Assembly: GCA_016195915.1 (NCBI GenBank)
Contig: JACPYS010000012.1
Coordinates: forward strand, 167,810-231,809
Direction of reading: 5' to 3'
From: Betaproteobacteria bacterium
GTDB taxonomy: Bacteria > Pseudomonadota > Gammaproteobacteria > Burkholderiales > SG8-39
DNA length: 64,000 nt
The notes below the pieces were generated by a model that saw only the letters and a list, made by a program, of their open reading frames with translations, made no database searches and was not told where the DNA came from. The first letter of the stretch is position 1. Every line of letters begins with the position of its first letter. Shown piece after piece: positions 36,441-49,668 of the stretch. The translations under genes were made by a program, and so were the position numbers.

Positions 36441-37904
36441 TTGAATAAAGCTGTTTCCCTTGCGCTGCTTCTGTTCCTTTTCGCAGGACCCGCGCAGGCG
36501 GGTGGAATCGGTGCGGACGACGCGCGCCACCTGCTCAATCGCACCGGGTTCGGCGCGCGCCTCGAGGAGATCGAGGCCTGTGCGAAGCTTTCACGCGAAG
36601 AAGCGCTCGAGCGGTTGCTTGCGGGCACGCGGATTTCCCCGAACACGCCTGCACCTGAATGGGTGAACGACTGGCGCTCGCCGCGCGGCCTTCGCCAGGC
36701 GAGCGTGGAAGAGCGGATGAAGTACCAGGCGGAACTGTTCCGGCGCGGGCTGGAACTCAAGAACTGGTGGGTACGCGAAATGCTCGCGACCTCCTCGCCC
36801 CTCACGGAGAGGATGACGCTGTTCTGGCACAACCACTTCACCTCCAGCCTGCAGAAGGTGCGATCGGCAAACCTGGTGTACCGGCAGAACCTGCTGCTGC
36901 GGCGCCATGCGCTGGGCAACTTCGGTGAATTGCTTCACGCGGTGTCTAGGGACCCGGCGATGCTCGTCTACCTCGACGCTGCCGCCAGCCGCCGCGGCCA
37001 GCCGAACGAGAATTTCGCGCGCGAGGTGATGGAGCTGTTCACGCTCGGGGAGGGAAAGTACGCAGAGGCCGATGTCAAGGAAGCGGCGCGCGCTTTCACC
37101 GGCTGGTCGGTGAACCCCGATTCGGGAGTGTTCATGTGGCGGCCGTTCGCGCACGATACAGGTGTAAAGGGCGTGCTGGGTCGCTCGGGAAACCTGCGCG
37201 GGGAAGATGTCCTCGATATTCTTCTCGCGCAACCCGCGACCGCCGAATTCGTCACGACCAAGCTGTGGCGCGAATTCGTTTCGCCCGCACCATCGAGCGA
37301 AGCCGAGCGTCGCGACGCAGCTCGCATCGCACAACGCTTGCGCGAAAGCGGCTACGATATCAAGTCGGCGCTGCGCGAAGTGTTCCTGTCGGACGCGTTC
37401 TGGTCGCCCGAGAACCGCGGCTCGCTGGTGAAATCGCCCGTCGAGCTGGTGGTCGGCACCTTGCGCCAGCTCGAGGTCGAGGTTTCCGATCCGCTGCCGT
37501 TCACGCTTTTGCTGCGCCGGCTCGGCCAAGATTTGTTCTCCCCGCCCAACGTCAAGGGCTGGCCGGGCGGCGAGGCGTGGATCAATGCGACCACGCTGCT
37601 CGCGCGCAAGCAGTTCCTCGAGCGGATCACGCGCGCCGATGAGGGCGTGCGCGAGATGCGCACGATGCAACCCGCTCCTGAAGGAACACCCAGGCCCGCC
37701 GTGGAAGCGAGGGAGCGCGCATTGAAGGTCATGCAGCATGTACGATTCCAGCCGCAGAACTGGTTGCGCCAGTTTGGGGAACAGGAGTCGGCCGCGCAGT
37801 TGGTATTGCTGCCGGGCGAGCCGGCGGGGAAGGGCGCGGGGAATTCACGCGGGCTCGATCTGGTGCGCGCACTGGTTTCCGATCCGATGTACCAGTTGAA
37901 ATGA
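36441..37904 (+). CDS. DUF1800 family protein
   Basis: DARHLLNRTGFG...LTERMTLFWHNHFTSS...NENFAREVMELFTLGEGKY.E.DVKEAARAFTGW; TTG start inferred. Confidence 0.92.
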   Translation: MNKAVSLALLLFLFAGPAQAGGIGADDARHLLNRTGFGARLEEIEACAKLSREEALERLLAGTRISPNTPAPEWVNDWRSPRGLRQASVEERMKYQAELFRRGLELKNWWVREMLATSSPLTERMTLFWHNHFTSSLQKVRSANLVYRQNLLLRRHALGNFGELLHAVSRDPAMLVYLDAAASRRGQPNENFAREVMELFTLGEGKYAEADVKEAARAFTGWSVNPDSGVFMWRPFAHDTGVKGVLGRSGNLRGEDVLDILLAQPATAEFVTTKLWREFVSPAPSSEAERRDAARIAQRLRESGYDIKSALREVFLSDAFWSPENRGSLVKSPVELVVGTLRQLEVEVSDPLPFTLLLRRLGQDLFSPPNVKGWPGGEAWINATTLLARKQFLERITRADEGVREMRTMQPAPEGTPRPAVEARERALKVMQHVRFQPQNWLRQFGEQESAAQLVLLPGEPAGKGAGNSRGLDLVRALVSDPMYQLK

Positions 37905-39055
37905 AACGCAGGGAATTCCTCTCGCGAACGGCCATGAGCGCCGCGGCGCTGTGCCTTCCAGGCGCGGTGTTCGCGCAAGCCGAATCCGCATATCGCCGCT
38001 TGCTCGTGCTCGTCGAACTGAAAGGCGGCAACGACGGCCTCAATACCGTAGTGCCCTACGCAGATGATGCGTACTATTCGCTGCGGCCGCAGCTGGCGGT
38101 GAAACGTGACCAGGTGCTGCAACTCGATCAGCGCACCGGGCTGCATCCCGCGATGCAGGCGCTCATGCCGCTTTGGCAGGCGCGCGAACTGGCGTTGGTG
38201 CAGGGCGTCGGATATCCGGAACCGAATCTTTCACACTTCCGCTCTATCGAGATCTGGGATACCGCGTCGAAGAGCGGGGAAACCCTGTCCGACGGCTGGC
38301 TCGCGCGCGCGTTCGCGATGCGGCCGGCGCCGGTCTCATTTGCAGCGGATGGCGTTGTGGTCGGCGGCAACGACATGGGGCCGCTCGCGGGAATTCATAC
38401 GCGCGCAGTTGCCCTCACGGACACGGAGAGCTTCCTGCGCCAGGCGCGCCTCGCGAATCCTGCCGGCAAGGCGCGCAACGGCGCGCTCGCGCATATCCTG
38501 AGAGTGGAAGCCGACGTGGTTCAGGCAGCAGCGAATCTCAATGCGGACTACGCGTTCCGCACGGAGTTTCCCCGCAACCCGTTCGGCCAGGCAGTGCGCA
38601 CGGCGGCGCAGATCGCTGCGAATCCGGCGGGAGTGGCGGTGATCCGGCTCTCGCTCGGCGGGTTCGACACGCACCGGAACCAGCCGGCGGTGCATGAACG
38701 GCTGCTCGGGGAATTGTCCGGGGGAATTGCCGCGCTCAAGTCCGCGCTCACCGAGATTGGCAAATGGGATTCGACGCTGGTGATGACCTACGCCGAGTTC
38801 GGCCGCCGCCCGCAGGAGAATGGTTCGATGGGCACGGACCACGGCACCGCCAACGCGCATTTCCTCGCGGGCGGGAGGGTCCGCGGCGGGCTCTATGGCG
38901 TGCCTCCGGATCTGACTGCTCTCGATGGAGGGAACCTGCGTTTCTCTATCGACTATCGCAATCTTTATGCGACGTTGCTGGAGCGGTGGTGGGGCGTGGA
39001 GTCCGCTCGCGTGTTGAACGGTCAATTTGCTGCGCTGGACGTGGTGCGCGCGTAA
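37901..39055 (+). CDS. DUF1501 family secreted (Tat-like) protein
   Basis: MKRREFLSRTAMSAAALCLPGAVFAQ; LVLVELKGGNDGLNTVVPY; TYAEFGRRPQENGSMGTDHGTANAHFLAGG; ATGA overlap with the DUF1800 gene. Confidence 0.93.
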   Translation: MKRREFLSRTAMSAAALCLPGAVFAQAESAYRRLLVLVELKGGNDGLNTVVPYADDAYYSLRPQLAVKRDQVLQLDQRTGLHPAMQALMPLWQARELALVQGVGYPEPNLSHFRSIEIWDTASKSGETLSDGWLARAFAMRPAPVSFAADGVVVGGNDMGPLAGIHTRAVALTDTESFLRQARLANPAGKARNGALAHILRVEADVVQAAANLNADYAFRTEFPRNPFGQAVRTAAQIAANPAGVAVIRLSLGGFDTHRNQPAVHERLLGELSGGIAALKSALTEIGKWDSTLVMTYAEFGRRPQENGSMGTDHGTANAHFLAGGRVRGGLYGVPPDLTALDGGNLRFSIDYRNLYATLLERWWGVESARVLNGQFAALDVVRA

Positions 39056-39078
39056 TCGCGATCGGACTCGCGGCCGCA

Positions 39079-40902
39079 TCATGAGAACTCCGTGGTGCTC
39101 CCGCCCAGCGCGTGATCGAACGGCAGCAACGGCCCGTCGATCGCGCGCAACTCGATGCTGTCGGCCTCGCGGTCGTAGATTGCATAGCGTATCTTGCCGA
39201 CCATGTCGCGACCGTAGCCGATCGCACCAACGCTGACGATGTAGCGCTCGTCGGGCACCAGCGCGAAGGGCCGGTTGTACTCGAACGCGTGGCGCGCCGC
39301 CTCGCCGTAGGACTGCGAGCGCTCGCCGAAAATCATCGGCACGTGCACATGGCCGATGAATATGATGCGAAAATCGCTTTCGTCGAACACGTTCCACGCC
39401 TCTACCGCATGGTTGATCTTGCGCTTGCGCGCGCGGGGGGAGACATGCACGTAGTAGACGTCGTCCTCGACGAAACTCTCGGGCAGGTTTGCCAGGTACC
39501 GGCGCGCCGCACCGGGCAGGACGACGTCGTTGTTCTCGTCGTGGTTGCCGCGCACGCAGGGGATGCCGAGGCGCCGCAAGGTTTCGATGACCTCCTCGTT
39601 TCCCGTGCCGCCCTCGACCACGTCACCCAGGCAGAGAATGCGGTCGCAGTTCTGGGTCTCGATGTCGGCCAGCGCGGCAAGCAGCCCCGCGTGGCTTCCG
39701 TGGATGTCGGAAATCAGCGCAGTGCGGCGGGCCGGCTTGCGCGTTCGCGCCGAGAGGCGTGCGCGCAGCCGCTCCGCTTCGGGGACAGCGTTCTCAATCT
39801 CGAAGCGCAACACGCGCTCGATCTCGCGCGCCATCGCCGCCGCGTTGGCGTCCGACGCCACGCGCAATGCAAGGCCCTCTACCGCGAGTCGGTGCGCGCG
39901 GGCGGTACCAACGGCATTTCCGGCTTCGCCCGGGTGTTCGAGGACATCGACAAACCGGCTGACGCGCTCCTCCAGTTCGGCGCCGCGCGCGAGCCCGGCA
40001 ACCCATCGCGCCGGCATCGCCGAAAAGCCGAAGCGAGCGCCCAGCAGGGCGCCGGCGACGGCTCCGTTCGAGTCCGCGTCGCCACCTTCATGGACGACGC
40101 GCAGGATCCCGTCTTCGAACGATCGCGCATGCCGAAGCGCCCACAGTCCCGCCTCGAGCGCCGTATAGGTATACCCAATGCGATTCGCTTCGCCTTCGCC
40201 GAGTCCCTCGTCCAGGTCGAGCGATGCGAGCGTGTCATCCTGTGTCCGCGAGAAGCATTCGCGCACGCCCGGGTCATGGCGCGCCGCGGCAAGCGCTGCC
40301 GCCTCGAGTATCGTTTCCAGCGGCAGAGCATCTTCAAGGAGTGCCGATATTGCATGACACAGCGCTACACAGGACGCGATGCAACGAGGATCGCAGTGTG
40401 TGATGCGGCAGACCCGTTCGGTCTGTTCGCGAACGCGCTCGGGGAACGGGTACTGCCAGACACCGAGCACCGATGTGCGCATGATGGCGCCGTTGGCAGC
40501 AGACCGGCGCGCGGTCTCCTCCCACACCCTGCGCGCGACGGCGGCCGGATCGCGCAGATATGCGGCGTCGCAAAGGACGCTCGCCGTCGTCTGACCCATG
40601 CCCATGCCGCCGGCAAGCGCCCAGTCGCGCAGGCGCGCGGCGATGTCGCGCTCGTCGACCACGCGCGTAGCGAGCAGGCTGTCGAGGATGCACAGCATCT
40701 GGTCGGTGTCGTCGGTCCAGTCGCCGCGCTCCCAATGCGAGCGATGGTGGTCGCGGACGATATCGGCGTAGTCGCGCAAGCCGTGCGGGTAGTACTCGAT
40801 GACCTGCGCCCGGGAAAGAAATTCGGTGCCCAGTCCGAGCGCGTCACCCACGGCCTGGCCGTAGAGAACACCCCGGATCCGGTCGGCGAGTTTCTCGTTC
40901 AT
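39079..40902 (-). CDS. ADP-ribosylglycohydrolase fused to calcineurin-like metallophosphoesterase
   Basis: ARH: IRGVLYGQAVGDALGLGTEF..DWTDDTDQMLCILDSL..EGGDADSNGAVAGALLGARFG; MPE: ALISDIHGSHAGLLAAL, ILCLGDVVEGG, VRGNHDEN, FIGHVHVPMI. Confidence 0.92.
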   Translation of the reverse strand: MNEKLADRIRGVLYGQAVGDALGLGTEFLSRAQVIEYYPHGLRDYADIVRDHHRSHWERGDWTDDTDQMLCILDSLLATRVVDERDIAARLRDWALAGGMGMGQTTASVLCDAAYLRDPAAVARRVWEETARRSAANGAIMRTSVLGVWQYPFPERVREQTERVCRITHCDPRCIASCVALCHAISALLEDALPLETILEAAALAAARHDPGVRECFSRTQDDTLASLDLDEGLGEGEANRIGYTYTALEAGLWALRHARSFEDGILRVVHEGGDADSNGAVAGALLGARFGFSAMPARWVAGLARGAELEERVSRFVDVLEHPGEAGNAVGTARAHRLAVEGLALRVASDANAAAMAREIERVLRFEIENAVPEAERLRARLSARTRKPARRTALISDIHGSHAGLLAALADIETQNCDRILCLGDVVEGGTGNEEVIETLRRLGIPCVRGNHDENNDVVLPGAARRYLANLPESFVEDDVYYVHVSPRARKRKINHAVEAWNVFDESDFRIIFIGHVHVPMIFGERSQSYGEAARHAFEYNRPFALVPDERYIVSVGAIGYGRDMVGKIRYAIYDREADSIELRAIDGPLLPFDHALGGSTTEFS

Positions 40903-40952
40903 CGCGCCTGAATGCTGCGCCCGAAGAGCGCGTTTGAGCAAGACTCGGCATC

Positions 40953-40982
40953 TTGCCGCAGTCATCGGATACGGGGTTTATA
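40953..40982 (+). promoter_or_regulatory. Candidate promoter TTGCCG-N18-TTTATA for the Hsp70 gene string
   Basis: Read in the divergent intergenic region 40903-41025. Confidence 0.35.
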
Positions 40983-41025
40983 GTGGCGCGCGGAGGTTCG
41001 CTCCCGTGTCTGCTGGGGAGGTGCA

Positions 41026-41178
41026 ATGAGTGAAAAGCTGAGGGCGCTGCTGAAGTTCGGCATGAAGGTGCACGTGGAGATGCGGCTGCGGGATTCGGAG
41101 ACAGCATTCCGACAGGTCGCCGATAGTGCACAGGGCGAGGACTGCGCATTGCCCGACCTCGCAGAGGACACGCCATGA
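41026..41178 (+). CDS. Putative 50-aa micro-ORF at head of the Hsp70 operon
   Basis: MSEKLRALLKFGMKVHVEMRLRDSETAFRQVADSAQGEDCALPDLAEDTP*; RBS gggaggtgc; overlaps the next ORF by ATGA. Confidence 0.55.
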   Translation: MSEKLRALLKFGMKVHVEMRLRDSETAFRQVADSAQGEDCALPDLAEDTP

Positions 41179-41228
41179 CCAGCCGCAATCACCAAGCGCC
41201 GACTGATGTTGAAATAGCGCTCCGATGA
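41175..41228 (+). CDS. Putative 17-aa coupling micro-ORF
   Basis: [17 protein letters not shown], with ATGA overlaps to the upstream micro-ORF (41175) and to the Hsp70 start (41225). Confidence 0.4.
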   Translation: MTSRNHQAPTDVEIALR

Positions 41229-42922
41229 TCGTCGGCATCGACCTCGGTACCACGAACAGCCTGGTCAGCGTCTGGCGCGACGGTGCGGCGCAGATCATCC
41301 CCAACGCGCTTGGCCAGCTTCTCACGCCTTCGGTCGTCGCCGTGGACGACAAGGGCGAGGTGGTGGTGGGGCTCGCCGCGCGCGAGCGTCTGCTCACCAG
41401 CCCGGAGAGCACGGCTTCGGTGTTCAAGCGTTACATGGGCAGCAACCGGACGCTGCAGCTCGGTGGCCGCGCTTTCCGGCCGGAAGAGCTGTCCTCTCTG
41501 GTGCTGCGTTCGCTCAAGGCCGATGCCGAGTCTGCGCTCGGCTGTGCGGTCGAGGAAGCGGTCATCACCGTGCCGGCCTATTTCAGCGACGCGCAGCGCA
41601 AGGCGACGCGTATCGCCGGGCAGCTTGCCGGGCTGAAGGTCGACCGGCTGTTGAACGAGCCGACCGCGGCGGCGCTCGCCTATGGACTGCACCAGCTCGA
41701 GCGCGAGTCGAAGTTCCTGGTGTTCGATCTCGGCGGCGGCACCTTCGACGTGTCGATACTCGAGATGTTCGAGGGCGTGATGGAGGTGCGCGCCAGCGCG
41801 GGTGACAATTTCCTCGGCGGCGAGGACTTCGTCGGATTTCTGGCGGAGGGTTTCATCCGCGCCACGCGATTGGACGGGGGCAAGCTGCCGGTACTCGCGC
41901 GCGCCTCTCTGAGGGAGCAGGCGGAACGTGCCAAGCGGCGTCTGAGCGCCGAGCCCTCGGCCGCGATGCGGTTGCGCGTCGAAGGCGGGCGCGGGATCGA
42001 GTGGACAGTGAGCGAACAGCAGTTCGAGGCGATGAGCGCGCCTCTGCTGGCGCGGCTGCGCGCGCCGGTGGAGCGGGCGCTGCGAGATGCGCGCATCCGC
42101 GCCGCCGAGCTCGACCAAATTGTGCTGGCCGGCGGCGCGACGCGCATGCCCATGGTCCGCAGGCTGGTGGCGAAAATGTTCGGCCGGATCCCGGCGGCGA
42201 ACCTGAACCCCGACGAAGTCGTGGCGATGGGCGCAGCGGTTCAGGCAGGTCTCAAGGCGCGCGACTCGGCGCTGGAGGAAGTCGTACTCACGGACGTCAG
42301 CCCCTACTCGCTGGGCATCGCAAGCTCGGAAGAACTTGCGCCAGGCCACTTCGAGGCCGTGTTCGCGCCGATCATCGAGCGCAACACCGTGGTACCGGCG
42401 AGCCGCACCAAGGGGTTCGTCACCACGACGGACAACCAGCGCGAGATTCTCGCGCGTATCTACCAGGGCGAGTCGCGCAGTGTCGATGAAAACATCTTCC
42501 TGGGGGAGGTGCGTGTCCAGGTGCCCGCGCGCCCGGCGGGCATGGAGCCCGTAGACGTCCGCTTCAGCTACGACATCAACGGGCTATTGGAGGTCGAGGC
42601 GAGCGTGCGCAGCACTCGCCGCAGCGCCCGCGTGGTGATCGAGAGCAATCCGGGGGTGCTCTCGCCCGAAGAGATCGCCGCGTGCCTGCGCAAGCTCTCG
42701 GCGCTGAAAATCCATCCGCGGGAAGAGTCGGAAAACCGCGCCGTTCTCGAGCGCGCCGAGCGCATCTACCGCGAAAGCCTCGGTGATCGGCGCGAGGCCG
42801 TCGGCAGGTTGATCGGCCGCTTCCTGTTGGTGCTGGACCGGCAGGATCCGCACGAATGCCAGGAGGCGCGCGCCGGCATGCAGCGCGTGCTCGACGACAT
42901 CGACGGCGAGAGCTATCTCTGA
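41225..42922 (+). CDS. HscC-like Hsp70 chaperone
   Basis: [18 protein letters not shown]...[43 protein letters not shown]...[36 protein letters not shown]; compact 565 aa. Confidence 0.93.
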
Positions 42923-42923
42923 A

Positions 42924-44705
42924 ATGCGTGTCTGGGATGTCCTCGGTATTGCGCCTACCGATGATCTCCGCGAGATACGCAAGGCCTATGCGCGGGCGCT
43001 GAAGCGCAACAATCCCGAGGACGATGCCGACGGCTTCCGGCGGTTGCGCGAAGCCTACGAGCATGCGCTGGCGGGGACCGAGCCTGTGCCAGTGCCGTCG
43101 CCGTTCGTGCGCGATGCGCCACCAACGCCTTCTCCGGCGCCCGTCCACCGGAATAACCGCGAGCAGCCAAGGGCCCCGCCAGTTCCCGTCGACCGGAATA
43201 ACCGCGAGCCACCCGCGACGCCGAGATCCGCGTCGGAGGGGCGTGCAGCCGCGCGGGCCGCGAAGGTCCTGGCAGCCCTGAACACGAAAGGCAGCGATGC
43301 GGCAGCGCAGGCGCTGGAAGAAGCGCTCGCCGACAAGGAATTTGCCGACCTTGCATTGCGCGAGCATTTCGAGGAGGCGCTCGTCGACGCGATTGCAGCG
43401 CAGGAGGAGCTTCCTGCGGCGCTGATCGCCCTTGCCGCGGATCGCTTCGGCTGGCGCGAGCGGCCGGTGCATCTGCTCCAGCGCGTGCCCGCGCAGATGG
43501 AGCGCCTTCTCGGGCGGCTGCGGGCGCGCGACGCGCGCGATGCGCTTGATGCCCTGCCGGCGGATGGGCCGCGCCGGCGCGCCGCACAGGCGCTCATCGG
43601 TCCTTTTCGTGCCGTGTTCTTCCGATGGGTGGCGCTCAACAAGCCGGTGGTGCGCGAGATGCGCTTGCTGCTACTGAGCCTTGAGCGCGGCACGCCGGAA
43701 GTATTCGACTACGAAATCGAGCCAGCCACGCGGGAGTGGTGGACGCATTGCGTAGCCGGTCCGCGCCTGTATAGCTGGCATGCCGCCCTGGTACTCGGCC
43801 TCTCGCCGGTGATGCTATTGATGGTGATGCTGGACGTTACGCAGACGCCTTTCCTCGCGCAGGCGGCCGTGCTCATCGCGGCCTGCTACGGATGGGAGAC
43901 GCTGGAGCTACGCTGGCCGGACTGGAACGCGAGGCTGCGCGTCGATCCATGGCTGAAAAGCGGCTGGGTTCCGGCCTCTGCCGTGCTGATCTTCGCCTGC
44001 GCCTGGTCCGCCGACTGGTCGAACGTGGCCATCGGGGCCTGCGCGGTGGCGATAGGATTGACGATCCTCTGGAGCCTGCCCAGCCTGCGCCGCGAGGACG
44101 TTACAACGGCTCCAGTCGTGATCGTGCTGGTGATCATTTTCCTGGGCGGTGTCGTGGGGATTGTTTTTTCGATCGCCTTCCCGCTCAACTTTCTCGCCAG
44201 CGTGATGCTGGTGATTTTCATGCTGCGGGGCGAGGACGCGATCTTGAGCCTCGGATGGCGGGTCCGCGATGCCGAGCGATACGAGCGCGCATTCCGTCGC
44301 GGGTGGGCCTATTTCGGCGCCGCACTGTTCGCCGCAGCGGCGCTTGCGCCACTAGTGCCGCTCGCGCAAAGCGGCGTGCTACAGGCAGCCGCCGTGCTGT
44401 TGCTTCTCTGCTCCGCTTGGGCGATCGTCGCGACCGGCTGCTTCTGCTCCGCTTGGGCGATCGTCGTGAATCGCCATGGCGAGCGCTGGTCGGAGGTGGG
44501 GGTCCCGTTTGCCGCGCTTTTGAGCGGCGTGATTCTGTACGATGCCGGATGGAAATCGATCAAGGTGATGGCAGGTGCATCGACCGGTCTCTGGGGCGGA
44601 GACGATCGCGTCGGCGCGATCGCCGCGGGCTGGCTCGGGACACTGTGCGTGCATGCCGGCACCGTGCTTATTCAGCGCATCAGGAAAGGCAGGCGCGGGG
44701 CCTGA
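42924..44705 (+). CDS. J-domain protein with multi-pass C-terminal membrane region (DjlB/DjlC-like)
   Basis: [49 protein letters not shown]; then low-complexity linker and multiple TM helices; immediately downstream of the Hsp70. Confidence 0.8.
44410..44481 (+). repeat. 36-bp tandem duplication in a TM coding segment ([24 protein letters not shown])
   Basis: tgctccgcttgggcgatcgtcg at 44410 and 44446. Confidence 0.85.
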
Positions 44706-44907
44706 TCTCCGGGTGAGTCCGGGTGAGCGCGGAACTGACGGGGTCTCCCCAGACGTGCAGGCAGAGCAGAAGTGAACTACTCGACCATTCGCTGGGCGTC
44801 CGTAACGCACGCTCGTTTCTCGTCGCTTGCCGACCCATGCCTGCAGGCGCAGAATCGTCGCCGAAACGCGGAATGACTACGTTCCGCGCATACTCCAGCC
44901 CCCGAAA

Positions 44908-45699
44908 ATGTGCTGCTTTACCGAAGCGGTAGAGAAGGTTTCCGATACCAGCATCTTCGCGCGTGCCAGTGGCGCGCACCAGCTCGTGGTCTACAGCATG
45001 GCCTATGCGGCGAAGAGCGACTTGGCGATGGTGCTGCCCGTTCCGGTGGTTCCCGATTCTTCCGAAGATGCGCTGCGCTTCATCAGTCTGGAGAAGTGCC
45101 CGGACTTCTTTGCCGAATTGCGCGACGGATTTCCCGCTCGCTACGACGCCGGGGTCGGCGATCTGCTGAGCGCGCCCGATGAGACCGAAACAGTGATGCG
45201 CATGCTGGAGGTCCACGAAGTCGGCGCGTTCGAAGCCTCGTTTGTGCCGCGGCCCGAGGACTTCGCCAGGCTGGACGAGCGCTTCCGTCTGCCGGTGGAA
45301 ATCTGGCTTGAGCTCAATCACTACCGCGACTGGGGCTTCGCCGTGTTCAAGCTGAAACCGACCGAGCTGGCACGCGTGCACCCGATGGCGTTCGAATTTC
45401 CGCGCTGCGACATCAAGCGGCTGTTCTTTCCCACGCTGCACGTGCACCACAGGCGACTTGAGAAGAGCGCGGAATTCGACCACTCCCTGTACTGCCAACC
45501 CGAACCGGCGATGAACTGGCACTTGGCCGAATGGGAGGACTCGGTGCACCCGGCGGGGCAGTTCGTGCACTGCGCTGACGCGGCGAAGCTGCTCGATCTC
45601 GAGTACCCGTGCTGGCGCGTGTTCGTAGACGGCGTGCGCGAGAACCGCGACACCTGGATCGGGGCGGGTGAGACTGTTCCTGCACCGAGGAGCATGTAG
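44908..45699 (+). CDS. Uncharacterised protein (263 aa)
   Basis: MCCFTEAVEKVSDTSIFARASGAHQLVVYSMAYAAKSDLAMVLPVPVVPDSSEDALRFISL...; no recognised domain. Confidence 0.7.
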   Translation: MCCFTEAVEKVSDTSIFARASGAHQLVVYSMAYAAKSDLAMVLPVPVVPDSSEDALRFISLEKCPDFFAELRDGFPARYDAGVGDLLSAPDETETVMRMLEVHEVGAFEASFVPRPEDFARLDERFRLPVEIWLELNHYRDWGFAVFKLKPTELARVHPMAFEFPRCDIKRLFFPTLHVHHRRLEKSAEFDHSLYCQPEPAMNWHLAEWEDSVHPAGQFVHCADAAKLLDLEYPCWRVFVDGVRENRDTWIGAGETVPAPRSM

Positions 45700-46765
45700 A
45701 ACAGAAATTGTGAGTAGGGGCAACAAGCTGAAGGAGAGGAGCTTGAGCGAAGGCAAGAGCTCGCAGCAGAACGCTGATCTCCTCCGCGAGATCGACTCGC
45801 TCAAAGCGCTTGCAGACACGGGCATGTGCGAGGACGCGCCGGAGGCGTGCGCACTCGCGCGCGAAAAGCTGCTACAGCTTTATCGTAATCACCATGCAGC
45901 GGTGGGACGCTTCACATTTGATGGATCGGGCGAGGGCGACTTCGAAGCCCTGGACTGGATCTGCCGGCTCGAGGCGACCGGCCACATAGGCGCCACGCGG
46001 TTGCTGAATCGGGTGTTTTTCACCAGCTATTCAAGCATGGGTATCGATGCGAGCTTTTGCCAGAAAGCCTTCGCTGCGACCCGGGAAATGCAGATGCTTG
46101 GTAGGAAGTTCGCCAAGGTAGCGCAGTTTTTGGCCGTGATGGAGATGGCGATGCCGGAACGGAATCTGGATGCGCTGTTGGTATGGCTGGATCTCGGCGG
46201 CGCGGTGCATTCGAGCCTGGCTTTCGGTATCCGGGAACTGCGCGCATCCTCCCTTGCCATTGGCCCGAACGCGCTGGGAACGATCTCGCACCATGTCCAT
46301 TGGGCAAAAGAGACTGCCAAGGCCCGGTCTGCTTCTCCCGTGAGAGTGCCGGCAGCCGATTTGTTGTCCGCTGTTGCGAGCGATTTTGCAAGAGTCGCTG
46401 ATACTGCACCCCCTCATCGCAGGCCGACCGTAGGCGAAGCAGCCGAAGCCGCGCGGCTGATCGCGCGCGCAGCGGAACTCGGCTCGGAAGAGGCGCGGGT
46501 GAAGCTCTGGTTCGATCGCTACCGTTCGGTTCCGGACAAGGATGTCCACCTTCGCGACTGGCTTTCAACCCACTTGCTACCGGAGTCCGGCGACGGCGCC
46601 TTCGCAGAAACGCAGGCCAGCCCCGTTTCTGTTGCGCGCGAATTCGTGCGGGAAGGAGACATGGACCGCGCGATGTTTGTTGCCCGCGAATTGCTCCGCA
46701 GCGGCAACGGCGCGCTTCAGACCCGCGCGCGCGGCTTGCTTGACTTGATTCGTCGGATGGCTTGA
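45668..46765 (+). CDS. Uncharacterised alpha-helical protein with Sel1-like tail
   Basis: ORF 365 aa; ...EAAEAARLIARAAELGSEEARVKLWFDRY...REFVREGDMDRAMFVARELLRSGNGALQTRARGLLDLIRRMA; start uncertain (TTG near 45743 possible). Confidence 0.6.
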   Translation: MRLFLHRGACRTEIVSRGNKLKERSLSEGKSSQQNADLLREIDSLKALADTGMCEDAPEACALAREKLLQLYRNHHAAVGRFTFDGSGEGDFEALDWICRLEATGHIGATRLLNRVFFTSYSSMGIDASFCQKAFAATREMQMLGRKFAKVAQFLAVMEMAMPERNLDALLVWLDLGGAVHSSLAFGIRELRASSLAIGPNALGTISHHVHWAKETAKARSASPVRVPAADLLSAVASDFARVADTAPPHRRPTVGEAAEAARLIARAAELGSEEARVKLWFDRYRSVPDKDVHLRDWLSTHLLPESGDGAFAETQASPVSVAREFVREGDMDRAMFVARELLRSGNGALQTRARGLLDLIRRMA

Positions 46766-46783
46766 GGAAGGGGGAATTCGACG

Positions 46784-46909
46784 ATGCCAAACGGCGGCTC
46801 CGACCATTGCGGAAGTTGCCGGCACAACCGGGTTAACGTCGGCCGCCAGTCGAAGATGGAGGAGCGGCTCGGTCTTCCCGACGGCGCACGGGAGTTGATG
46901 AAGCGATGA
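46784..46909 (+). CDS. Putative 41-aa Cys-containing micro-ORF
   Basis: MPNGGSDHCGSCRHNRVNVGRQSKMEERLGLPDGARELMKR*; ATGA overlap with the next gene; CxxC motif. Confidence 0.5.
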   Translation: MPNGGSDHCGSCRHNRVNVGRQSKMEERLGLPDGARELMKR

Positions 46910-47688
46910 TAGGCGCGATTGCCGGCGACATGATCGGCGTGCCCTGGGAGTCCGCGGGGGAGAAGCGCCATGACTTTCCCTTGTTCACCGAGTACTCGCG
47001 CTTCAGCGACGACACGGTGATGACGGTCGCGGTCGCGAGCGCCCTGCTCGAAGGCCGCGACTACGTGCGGGAAATGCGCGTACTCGGCCGCAGACACCCG
47101 TTCGTGGGCTACGGCAAGAGGTTCGAGGAATGGCTGCTGTACGAGGACCTCGAAACTTACGAGAGCTACGGCAATGGCGGGGCGATGCGTGCAGGCCCGA
47201 TCGGATATGCCGCGCGCAGCGAAGAGGAGGTTCTGGAAGAGGCGCGGCGCTGCGCCGCGCCAACGCACAACCATCCCGAGGGGGTGAAGGGCGCGCAGGC
47301 CGTCGCACTGGCGGTGTTTCTGGCCCGATCCGGCGCGGGCAAGGAGGACATCCGGCGCACGCTCGCCACTCGCCTCAATTACGACCTCGAGCGCACGGTC
47401 GAATCGATCCGTCCAGGCTACAGCTTCGACGTCGCGGCGGCGCGCTCGGTGCCGGAGGCGATCATCTGCTTCCTCGATGCAAAGGATTTCGAGGATGCGG
47501 TGCGCAATGCCGTTTCCCTGGGAGGCGATGCCGACACCATGGCATGCATCGCGGGAGTGATTGCGGAGGCGCACTGGGGCGGCGTGCCCGCAGGGATCGA
47601 GCGCGAGGTGCGCAGCCGGCTGCCGGAGGAATTCATTGAAGTGCTGGACCGGTTTCGGGCGCGGTATATGAATAGCGGCGGGCCATGA
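46906..47688 (+). CDS. ADP-ribosylglycohydrolase
   Basis: MIGAIAGDMIGVPWE...FSDDTVMTVAVASALLEG...GNGGAMRAGPIGYAA...SLGGDADTMACIAGVIAEAHWGG. Confidence 0.93.
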   Translation: MIGAIAGDMIGVPWESAGEKRHDFPLFTEYSRFSDDTVMTVAVASALLEGRDYVREMRVLGRRHPFVGYGKRFEEWLLYEDLETYESYGNGGAMRAGPIGYAARSEEEVLEEARRCAAPTHNHPEGVKGAQAVALAVFLARSGAGKEDIRRTLATRLNYDLERTVESIRPGYSFDVAAARSVPEAIICFLDAKDFEDAVRNAVSLGGDADTMACIAGVIAEAHWGGVPAGIEREVRSRLPEEFIEVLDRFRARYMNSGGP

Positions 47689-48143
47689 CACCGAACAGTT
47701 CGGGCGACATGCCAGATGAAAGCACCGTAGCGCGGCGCGGTTTCGGCTGGTGGCTGAAGCGCATCGTGGTCGCAATAGTGCTGATTGCGATGGCGTCCTT
47801 CTTCCTGATCCCGGCCTATCACGGCTTCAGGCCGCGTGCGCTGATCAGCGAAGCGCTCACCGACGGCGCCGAATTGAAATTCAAAGTGGCCGAGTTCTAC
47901 GAAAGCCACCGCAGATTGCCGCTGGATGCCGAGGTCCGGGCATTGCAAACCCTGCCCTCCGAGCTTAAGCGGGCGCAATCCGTCGTTTGGGACCCCGCCG
48001 GGCGCAGGGTCGTTGTCACCGCGGGCGACCCTCAACCGGGCAAGCGATTCGCGCTGAATGCGGAAGAACGCGACGGCAAGCTCGACTGGACGTGCCGTAC
48101 CATCGACCTCGATCCCAAGTACCTGCCCGGGACTTGCCGATGA
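47685..48143 (+). CDS. Single-TM protein with pilin-like C-terminal domain
   Basis: TM IVVAIVLIAMASFFLIP then VAEFYESHRRLPLDAEV...RDGKLDWTCRTIDLDPKYLPGTCR; ATGA overlap with the ARH gene. Confidence 0.65.
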   Translation: MTPNSSGDMPDESTVARRGFGWWLKRIVVAIVLIAMASFFLIPAYHGFRPRALISEALTDGAELKFKVAEFYESHRRLPLDAEVRALQTLPSELKRAQSVVWDPAGRRVVVTAGDPQPGKRFALNAEERDGKLDWTCRTIDLDPKYLPGTCR

Positions 48144-48631
48144 GATTCACGGATCTGTTCAAGCGCAGGGGATTCGGTCCACTCTCCGTCTCGCCGGTGG
48201 GCTTGACGGTCTTCTGCCTGTTCGTCGCAGCGGCCGCCGTAATCTCCAGGGGCGTGTACGAGGACAAGGAAATCCAGTCGAACCTCTACGCGGTCTTGGC
48301 CTATGCACGGCCGATCGCCGCGCACGTCCGCCTGTTCCATGAGCGGTCGGGCAGGTTTCCGGCCGCGCTGGCGGAAATCGCTGCTGCAAAGGCGCAGGCG
48401 CCGGCGCCGATCGCGCGGACGGAACTGCTCAAGGACGGAGAAGTTCGCCTTGTGTTCGCCAGTCCGCCGGCCATCGCCAACGCGTCTTTGACGTTGCGAG
48501 TAATCGTCCGGGGCCGCGAACATTTTCTCGAGTGCCGCGCGGAAGGCGATTTCAAGGGCGGGCTGCCCTTGGCGTGCAGGCCGGGTGAGGCTCCCGAACG
48601 GGTGCCCTGGCCGCCAGCGTCAGGAAAGTAA
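48140..48631 (+). CDS. Single-TM hypothetical protein, possible pilin-like fold
   Basis: TM VGLTVFCLFVAAAAVISRG; YARPIAAHVRLFHERSGRFPAALAEIA; ATGA overlap with the upstream gene. Confidence 0.6.
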   Translation: MRFTDLFKRRGFGPLSVSPVGLTVFCLFVAAAAVISRGVYEDKEIQSNLYAVLAYARPIAAHVRLFHERSGRFPAALAEIAAAKAQAPAPIARTELLKDGEVRLVFASPPAIANASLTLRVIVRGREHFLECRAEGDFKGGLPLACRPGEAPERVPWPPASGK

Positions 48632-48633
48632 TA

Positions 48634-49668
48634 TCACGGACGATACAACTCCTGCTTTGCCAGCCAGTTCTGAATCAACCCCGCCACCTGATCGCTGTTC
48701 TTGTCCATCATGATCATGTGCGAATTGCCTTTGACGCCGATCTGCGGAAGGTTGATCACGTCGTAGCGGCCGCCGGCGGCTTTCACCTGTTCCAGAAACC
48801 TCAGTTCGTTGGCGCGTATCGTTGGCCAGCGCGGATCTTCCTCGATGTAATCGCCGTACACCGCGAGTATCGGAATGTTCCTGAGATTGGCGGCAAGCTT
48901 GGAATCGCCCGCTCCCGCCGGTTCCACCAGCACCAGCGCCTTCACCTTGTCGGGCCGCGCCTGTGCGACCACTTGGCCGAACGTGCCGGACTGCGAATGC
49001 ACCAGCACCACGCACGGACAGACCTTGTCAACCAGTTCGGTATAGGCGCGAATGATCGCATCGTCCGTGGTGGTCCAGCGCGGCACCCCCTGCTTGGTGA
49101 AATTGTCGTAGCCCTCGGCGGGAAACTGGCCGCCGGGCTTCATCTTCATTTTCGCGGGGTCCTTGTTGTACGAACCCGGTCCTGCACCGATGCGAAATCG
49201 CTCGAACGGATTTTCCTTGGTCAGAAAAACCGGTTCGCTCTTGAACACGTCGGGAAACATCGCCCAGCCGGAACGGCCGCGCTCCACCGCATCGGAGATG
49301 TAGACCGGCCACCCTTTCCTGAGAAAGAAGTTAAGCCAACCTTCGCGCCCGTCGGGCGTGGTTTCGTAAGTTACGCCGGAAAGCCCGCCGCCGTGCCACA
49401 TCAGCAGCGGCAGCGGGCCGCGCTGATCCTGTGGAATGAAGTACTGCACATACATCTGCTCGACCTGATAGACGCCGTTCGGGTCCACCTTGGCGGGCAC
49501 GCCGCCCGGCGTGAACGTGACTTCCTTCACGGGCTTGCCGGAGATCGTGATTTCCCGCCCGCCGATGTGGAACGAGCCCATCGCCTTGAGCGTTATGGGC
49601 GCCTGCGCCGACGCGCTTCCGGCCAACAGCGCGGCGCCGAACGTGATGACCGATTTCAGTGAATACAT
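48634..49668 (-). CDS. Secreted alpha/beta hydrolase (esterase-like)
   Basis: Signal peptide MYSLKSVITFGAALLAGSASAQ; LLMWHGGGLSGVTYE; VVLVHSQSGTFGQVVAQARP; KGNSHMIMMDKNSDQVAGLIQNWL. Confidence 0.88.
   Translation of the reverse strand: MYSLKSVITFGAALLAGSASAQAPITLKAMGSFHIGGREITISGKPVKEVTFTPGGVPAKVDPNGVYQVEQMYVQYFIPQDQRGPLPLLMWHGGGLSGVTYETTPDGREGWLNFFLRKGWPVYISDAVERGRSGWAMFPDVFKSEPVFLTKENPFERFRIGAGPGSYNKDPAKMKMKPGGQFPAEGYDNFTKQGVPRWTTTDDAIIRAYTELVDKVCPCVVLVHSQSGTFGQVVAQARPDKVKALVLVEPAGAGDSKLAANLRNIPILAVYGDYIEEDPRWPTIRANELRFLEQVKAAGGRYDVINLPQIGVKGNSHMIMMDKNSDQVAGLIQNWLAKQELYRP

Follow-up and report, generated by a model that had tools for sequence, protein, structure and literature searches.

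A fused ADP-ribosylglycohydrolase and metallophosphoesterase gene in a betaproteobacterial genome and its possible role in ADP-ribose removal

Why should a bacterium join an ADP-ribosylglycohydrolase (ARH) and a calcineurin-like metallophosphoesterase (MPE) in one polypeptide? The question is raised by a gene in a 64,000-nucleotide stretch of DNA from a Betaproteobacteria bacterium (contig JACPYS010000012.1 of assembly GCA_016195915.1; the whole stretch is called the window here). A first-pass annotation of the bare sequence had described complete ARH and phosphoesterase modules in one uninterrupted reading frame and had proposed sequential chemistry on a single substrate. The fate of ADP-ribose once it has been stripped from its target is poorly known in bacteria, and an ARH and a phosphoesterase in one polypeptide, rebuilt with different ARHs, make a simple system for the predicted 'strip, then digest' logic. 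No characterised ARH-metallophosphoesterase fusion was found in the open-licence literature.

The gene and its two domains

The frame is present as described, and lies on the minus strand, which the annotation had left unstated (Table 1). It begins with an ATG at 40902 and contains no internal stops; an alternative in-frame ATG at 40965 is possible, and the relatives align to the start at 40902. Long antisense open frames are frequent in GC-rich DNA, and here the opposite strand is likewise open over 599 aa (39112-40911, +), so that the length of the frame is weak proof of a gene and the certainty comes from homology. The same fused architecture occurs in three other genomes (L023, L024 and L025, described below), which shows that the join is no artefact of sequencing or assembly, disposes of the possibility raised earlier that resequencing would reveal two separate ORFs, and confirms that the ARH-MPE fusion is a real gene.

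Table 1. Coordinates, in the window, of the ARH-MPE gene, its parts and its neighbours
Feature	Position	Strand	Basis
ARH-MPE fusion gene, 607 aa, single frame	39079..40902	-	Pfam; homologous fusions L023, L024, L025
ARH domain, residues 11-299, motifs GDALG, WTDDTDQM, ITH, GGDADSNG intact	40006..40872	-	Pfam PF03747, motif positions, Foldseek
Helical linker (predicted), residues 326-391	39730..39927	-	tblastn matches, predicted helices
MPE domain, about residues 393-590, five metal-site motifs intact	39133..39726	-	Pfam PF00149 / PF12850, invariant columns, Foldseek
HscC-type Hsp70, 565 aa, divergent neighbour of ARH-MPE	41225..42922	+	Pfam HSP70 2e-139
Membrane J-domain-like protein (DjlB/DjlC type), Hsp70 partner	42924..44705	+	Pfam DnaJ weak match, below cut-off
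Second, short ARH, 260 aa	46906..47688	+	Only other ARH in 6.8 Mb genome

When the domain-architecture check suggested by the annotation was run, the Pfam profiles ADP_ribosyl_GH and Metallophos both matched in the one polypeptide. The former was matched over its full length (1-287 of 287; 227.9 bits against a cut-off of 26.2, E 2.7e-67), and the metal-site motifs are intact, bearing out the claim of a complete ARH module: WTDDTDQM lies at residues 62-69, ITH (the 'TH' motif) at 167-169 and GGDADSNG at 273-280, and in the alignment the conserved TDD and GDxD(S/T) metal-site motifs and the TH motif line up with those of the relatives. A Foldseek search with the N-terminal half matched MJ1187 (1t5j), DraG, Tri1 and ARH3. 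The ARH fold and motifs are common to DraG, Tri1, ARH3 and the window protein (Foldseek E about 1e-10 to 1e-12), but only the window protein has a C-terminal MPE. In addition, the ARH half reaches 95 bits whereas the NCBIfam equivalog cut-offs are 337 (DraG) and 490 (Tri1), and it is therefore an orthologue of neither. A role in nitrogenase regulation (DraG/DraT) was rejected because the DraG cut-off was missed; a search of the genome for DRAT gave no match, and its positive control gave none either.

In the C-terminal half, Metallophos and Metallophos_2 were matched at residues 393-527 with 47.4 and 45.1 bits against cut-offs of 21.5 and 27 (E 4e-12 and 1e-11). All the phosphoesterase motifs quoted in the annotation are present, namely SDIHGS (398-403), the GDVVEGG of LGDVVEGG (425-432), the GNHDEN of RGNHDEN (451-457) and GHVHVP (517-522), together with the histidine of the fourth motif in YVHVSPR (484-490). 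With a score above the cut-off and the DxH, GDxx, GNHD, H and GHxH motifs all in place, the half belongs to the calcineurin-like superfamily, its metal-site residues being D399, H401, D427, N453, H454, H486, H518 and H520. None of the fused members included in the alignment has lost either active site. We thus show that two complete domains with conserved binuclear metal sites reside in one polypeptide.

Between the domains, an AlphaFold2 model predicts linker helices at residues 334-350 and 352-371. The full-length model, built from a 29-row alignment, has a mean pLDDT of 89.4 and a pTM of 0.60, a value at which the orientation of the domains, and hence any channelling between them, is not reliably predicted. 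By tblastn, the linker has matches of 32-51% identity in L004, L023, L025, L030 and L042, and it accompanies the MPE even in loci where the MPE is unfused. The MPE half was modelled separately for its own Foldseek search, which returned the Sphaerobacter metallophosphoesterase 3rqz first, followed by SapH (Spr1479; 3qfm), an asymmetric Ap4A hydrolase/phosphodiesterase, and other Ap4A-type hydrolases. 3rqz and SapH are the nearest solved folds and sequences to the MPE half, at about 20-30% identity, but neither is fused to an ARH, and the window MPE has in addition the helical linker at its N-terminus and, in the alignment, EAWNVF...GYGRD as the conserved signature of its subfamily.

One phosphoesterase subfamily and its ARH partners

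The full protein was searched against 84,980 species genomes, which yielded 36 loci. A Burkholderiales MAG (L023) carries a fused ARH-MPE of 65% identity over 598 residues, and Achromatium (L024) one of 46% identity. The MPE of a further member of the Betaproteobacteria (L025) is 75% identical to that of the window and is fused to a different, short ARH, which is 67% identical to the window's second ARH. These three and the window make up the four genomes with the fused architecture. In Propionivibrio (L030) the MPE (68% identical) has a gene of its own, which begins within the end of the gene for a third type of ARH, and in L042 and L004 (genome G002, from the window's own family) the MPE, identical between the two, stands without an adjoining ARH.

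In the tree, this MPE subfamily is monophyletic with a support of 100/99 and stands apart from other MPEs. Its six members comprise the fusions to ARH type 1 (window, L023 and L024), the fusion to type 2 (L025), the overlapping pair in L030 and the lone MPE of L004. The exchange of ARH partners around a single MPE subfamily suggests a functional couple and is the strongest evidence for one. The re-pairing of the same subfamily with three ARH types also strengthens the sequential chemistry proposed in the first-pass annotation; the specific substrate step we infer. Counting against the pairing are the MPEs of L004 and L042, and the fact that most close ARH relatives occur without an MPE.

The subfamily is rare. 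A profile search for the MPE across 369 genomes of the class, 399 of the order and 399 of the phylum (partly overlapping samples) matched the window genome alone, and 98 genomes of the window's family held no other fusion and no other close copy of the neighbouring Hsp70. A putative horizontal acquisition of the ARH-MPE gene is likely. A phage or mobile origin was rejected: no relative on a viral contig had both domains, and the phage matches were to the ARH only.

Two further arrangements were observed. On Halapricum plasmids, a separate and distant archaeal MPE is translationally coupled to an ARH through a 4-nt gene overlap, which also speaks for a joint function of the two domains, and on one of these plasmids (L110, NZ_CP064790, 2033-7577) vWA, HEAT-repeat, ARH and MPE genes form a tight run. 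In two Cytophagales genomes, a conserved gene of ~242 aa with no Pfam match lies just upstream of the ARH (L032:7505-8239 and L039:9254-9979).

Chaperone genes and other neighbours

At 565 aa, the Hsp70 next to ARH-MPE is within the HscC size range (PMC8215388). It is 79% identical to the Hsp70 of L023 (6687-8381), and the adjoining J-proteins are 46% identical. The genes of L023 lie on one strand with Hsp70 first, the J-protein next and the fusion last, the stop of the J-protein overlapping the start of ARH-MPE (ATGA); in the window, ARH-MPE runs divergent from the Hsp70/J-protein pair. Seventeen other Pseudomonadota genomes have a close HscC-type Hsp70, and nearly all of them have a J-like neighbour, but a profile search of up to 20 kb around these Hsp70 genes found no ARH or MPE in any of the 17. 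A general association of HscC-type Hsp70 with ARH-MPE was therefore rejected; the link of Hsp70 and J-protein to ARH-MPE is real, but confined to the two lineages of the window and L023. The operon of L023 also gives a concrete lead to possible substrates: the Hsp70 and the membrane J-protein might present ADP-ribosylated clients to ARH-MPE, or ARH-MPE might regulate the Hsp70 by removing its ADP-ribose, with the MPE consuming the ADP-ribose in either case. We regard this chaperone coupling as very unlikely.

Both ARHs of the genome lie in the window, ~6 kb apart, flanking the Hsp70 and the J-like protein; the probability of two genes lying this close in the genome by chance is about 0.002. 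A pilin-like gene (47685-48143) begins at the stop of the second ARH, with which its start overlaps. The stretch from the J-protein to the second ARH contains two open frames (44827-45699 and 45668-46765, +) that have no Pfam, NCBIfam or PADLOC match, the latter frame having a weak coding character. On the other side, a DUF1800/DUF1501 gene pair with a 4-nt overlap (36441-39055, +) is convergent with ARH-MPE. With Pfam, no Nudix- or WYL-domain regulator was found among the genes from 36441 to 49668. A role as a known defence gene was dismissed, as the PADLOC scan of ARH-MPE and its neighbours was negative. The other window genes checked were of chromosomal housekeeping type (mfd, RisS-type kinase).

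What the fused enzyme may do

We tentatively favour a reading in which the ARH frees ADP-ribose and the MPE then cuts its phosphoanhydride, because the fold relatives of the MPE are Ap4A-hydrolase-like. By hydrolysing the C1'' bond, the ARH would release ADP-ribose from a modified target, either a protein or the end of a nucleic acid, and the MPE would hydrolyse the released ADP-ribose to AMP and ribose-5-phosphate; this consumption would pull the reaction forward and keep free ADP-ribose from accumulating or signalling. As part of the same reading, and held just as tentatively, the product would be a putative soluble bifunctional enzyme. The Pfam scan of the adjacent genes matched no ADP-ribosyltransferase, so that the source of the modification may be external or an enzyme that escaped recognition. 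The presumed specificity of the MPE for a phosphoanhydride is drawn from distant fold similarity. ADPRibase-Mn is a metallophosphoesterase that cuts the phosphoanhydride of ADP-ribose, and the superfamily fold is thus capable of this reaction (PMC3407115). The superfamily is common to both, but the active-site-entrance elements of ADPRibase-Mn are called unique to its family (PMC3407115), and neither the 50 best PDB fold matches nor the sequence matches listed for the MPE half include the enzyme. Release of ADP-ribose followed by cleavage of a phosphate linkage, one of the two examples offered in the annotation, stands as the best reading that we infer, its general form having already been proposed (PMC9503650).

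The other example, a phosphorylated ribosyl product (ADP-ribose-1''-phosphate), leads to KptA/Tpt1. KptA is an RNA 2'-phosphotransferase that makes ADP-ribose 1'',2''-cyclic phosphate, and cyclic or terminal phosphates are common substrates of MPE enzymes. Directly upstream of the ARH and on the same strand, KptA/Tpt1 is encoded in a Chloroflexi genome (L026:9103-9681), whose unfused ARH is 61% identical and sister to those of the window and L023 (support 91/92), and in Nostoc (L028:2128-2673); KptA and ARH at these loci may also be a gene pair in their own right. By a rough Poisson estimate with assumed gene numbers, the probability of two such cases among 27 loci is about 4e-4. KptA/Tpt1 is able to attach ADP-ribose to phosphorylated nucleic-acid ends, an adduct that ARH3 reverses (PMC8883491). 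All this speaks for the cleaning of nucleic-acid ends, whereby the ARH would free the phosphorylated ends of RNA or DNA from ADP-ribose (or hydrolyse ADP-ribose-phosphate metabolites) and the MPE would remove or open the terminal or cyclic phosphate. We nevertheless consider it unlikely, given that, of the 27 unfused ARH loci inspected, no more than these 2 have KptA next to the ARH, that no ligase or nuclease adjoins ARH-MPE in the window, and that none of the seven MPE-bearing genomes searched (window, L023, L024, L025, L030, L042 and G002) contains KptA, so that the MPE serves no resident KptA. Despite L026 and L028, KptA was for this reason rejected as the upstream enzyme, and the phosphorylated product is weakened as far as this usual source is concerned. 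Phosphate-linked ADP-ribose may still be a substrate, as KptA is found beside the nearest unfused ARHs.

The MPE half also bears a weak similarity, in sequence and fold, to the phage lambda and PP1/PP5 Ser/Thr phosphatases, and the domain pairing is conserved, as might be expected if the ARH removed ADP-ribose and the MPE a separate phosphate from the same protein or its partner. However, the nearest solved relatives, 3rqz and SapH, which are small-molecule or function-unassigned phosphoesterases, outrank the protein phosphatases, and no kinase lies beside ARH-MPE among the genes tested; we find two erasers on one target distinctly unlikely. A neutral fusion of functionally unlinked domains, kept in a few genomes, would fit the rarity of the MPE subfamily, the many ARH relatives without an MPE and the occurrence of the MPE alone. 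Yet chance hardly accounts for a six-member clade in which the MPE was fused at least twice separately, to ARHs of different types, and in one case overlaps an ARH gene, and the aligned fused members have kept both active sites, which makes neutrality improbable.

The preferred reading, in which ADP-ribose is released and then cleaved, has a close precedent in the ARH (ARG)-centred bacterial systems described in section 3.8 of Iyer et al. 2022 (PMC9503650). According to that section, a little over 55% of neighbourhoods pair the ARH with a phosphatase, either fused to it or encoded next to it, calcineurin-like phosphatases are among the partners, and the phosphatase is suggested to process the released ADP-ribose further; Nudix- or WYL-domain regulators occur in about 42% of the systems. 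Coupling of ARH and phosphatase, including calcineurin-like phosphatases, is thus already predicted, and ARH-MPE opens no new category. It resembles the systems of that section in its cis coupling and in the frequent genes for peptide-binding chaperones. Those systems have no coupled ADP-ribosyltransferase, and near ARH-MPE the Pfam scan of the adjacent genes matched none; the vWA, HEAT-repeat, ARH and MPE run of Halapricum fits the published ARH-phosphatase-chaperone pattern. The usual phosphatase described there, however, is of rhodanese type, calcineurin-like ones being listed with gene neighbourhoods (Figure 7b), and the hallmarks given in that section (Nudix/WYL regulators, REases, SseB or TY chaperones) are replaced near ARH-MPE by an HscC-type Hsp70 and a J-protein. 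What is new in our case is the fused MPE subfamily, its swapping of ARH partners, the Hsp70/J-protein operon of L023 and the presence of KptA beside the closest unfused ARHs.
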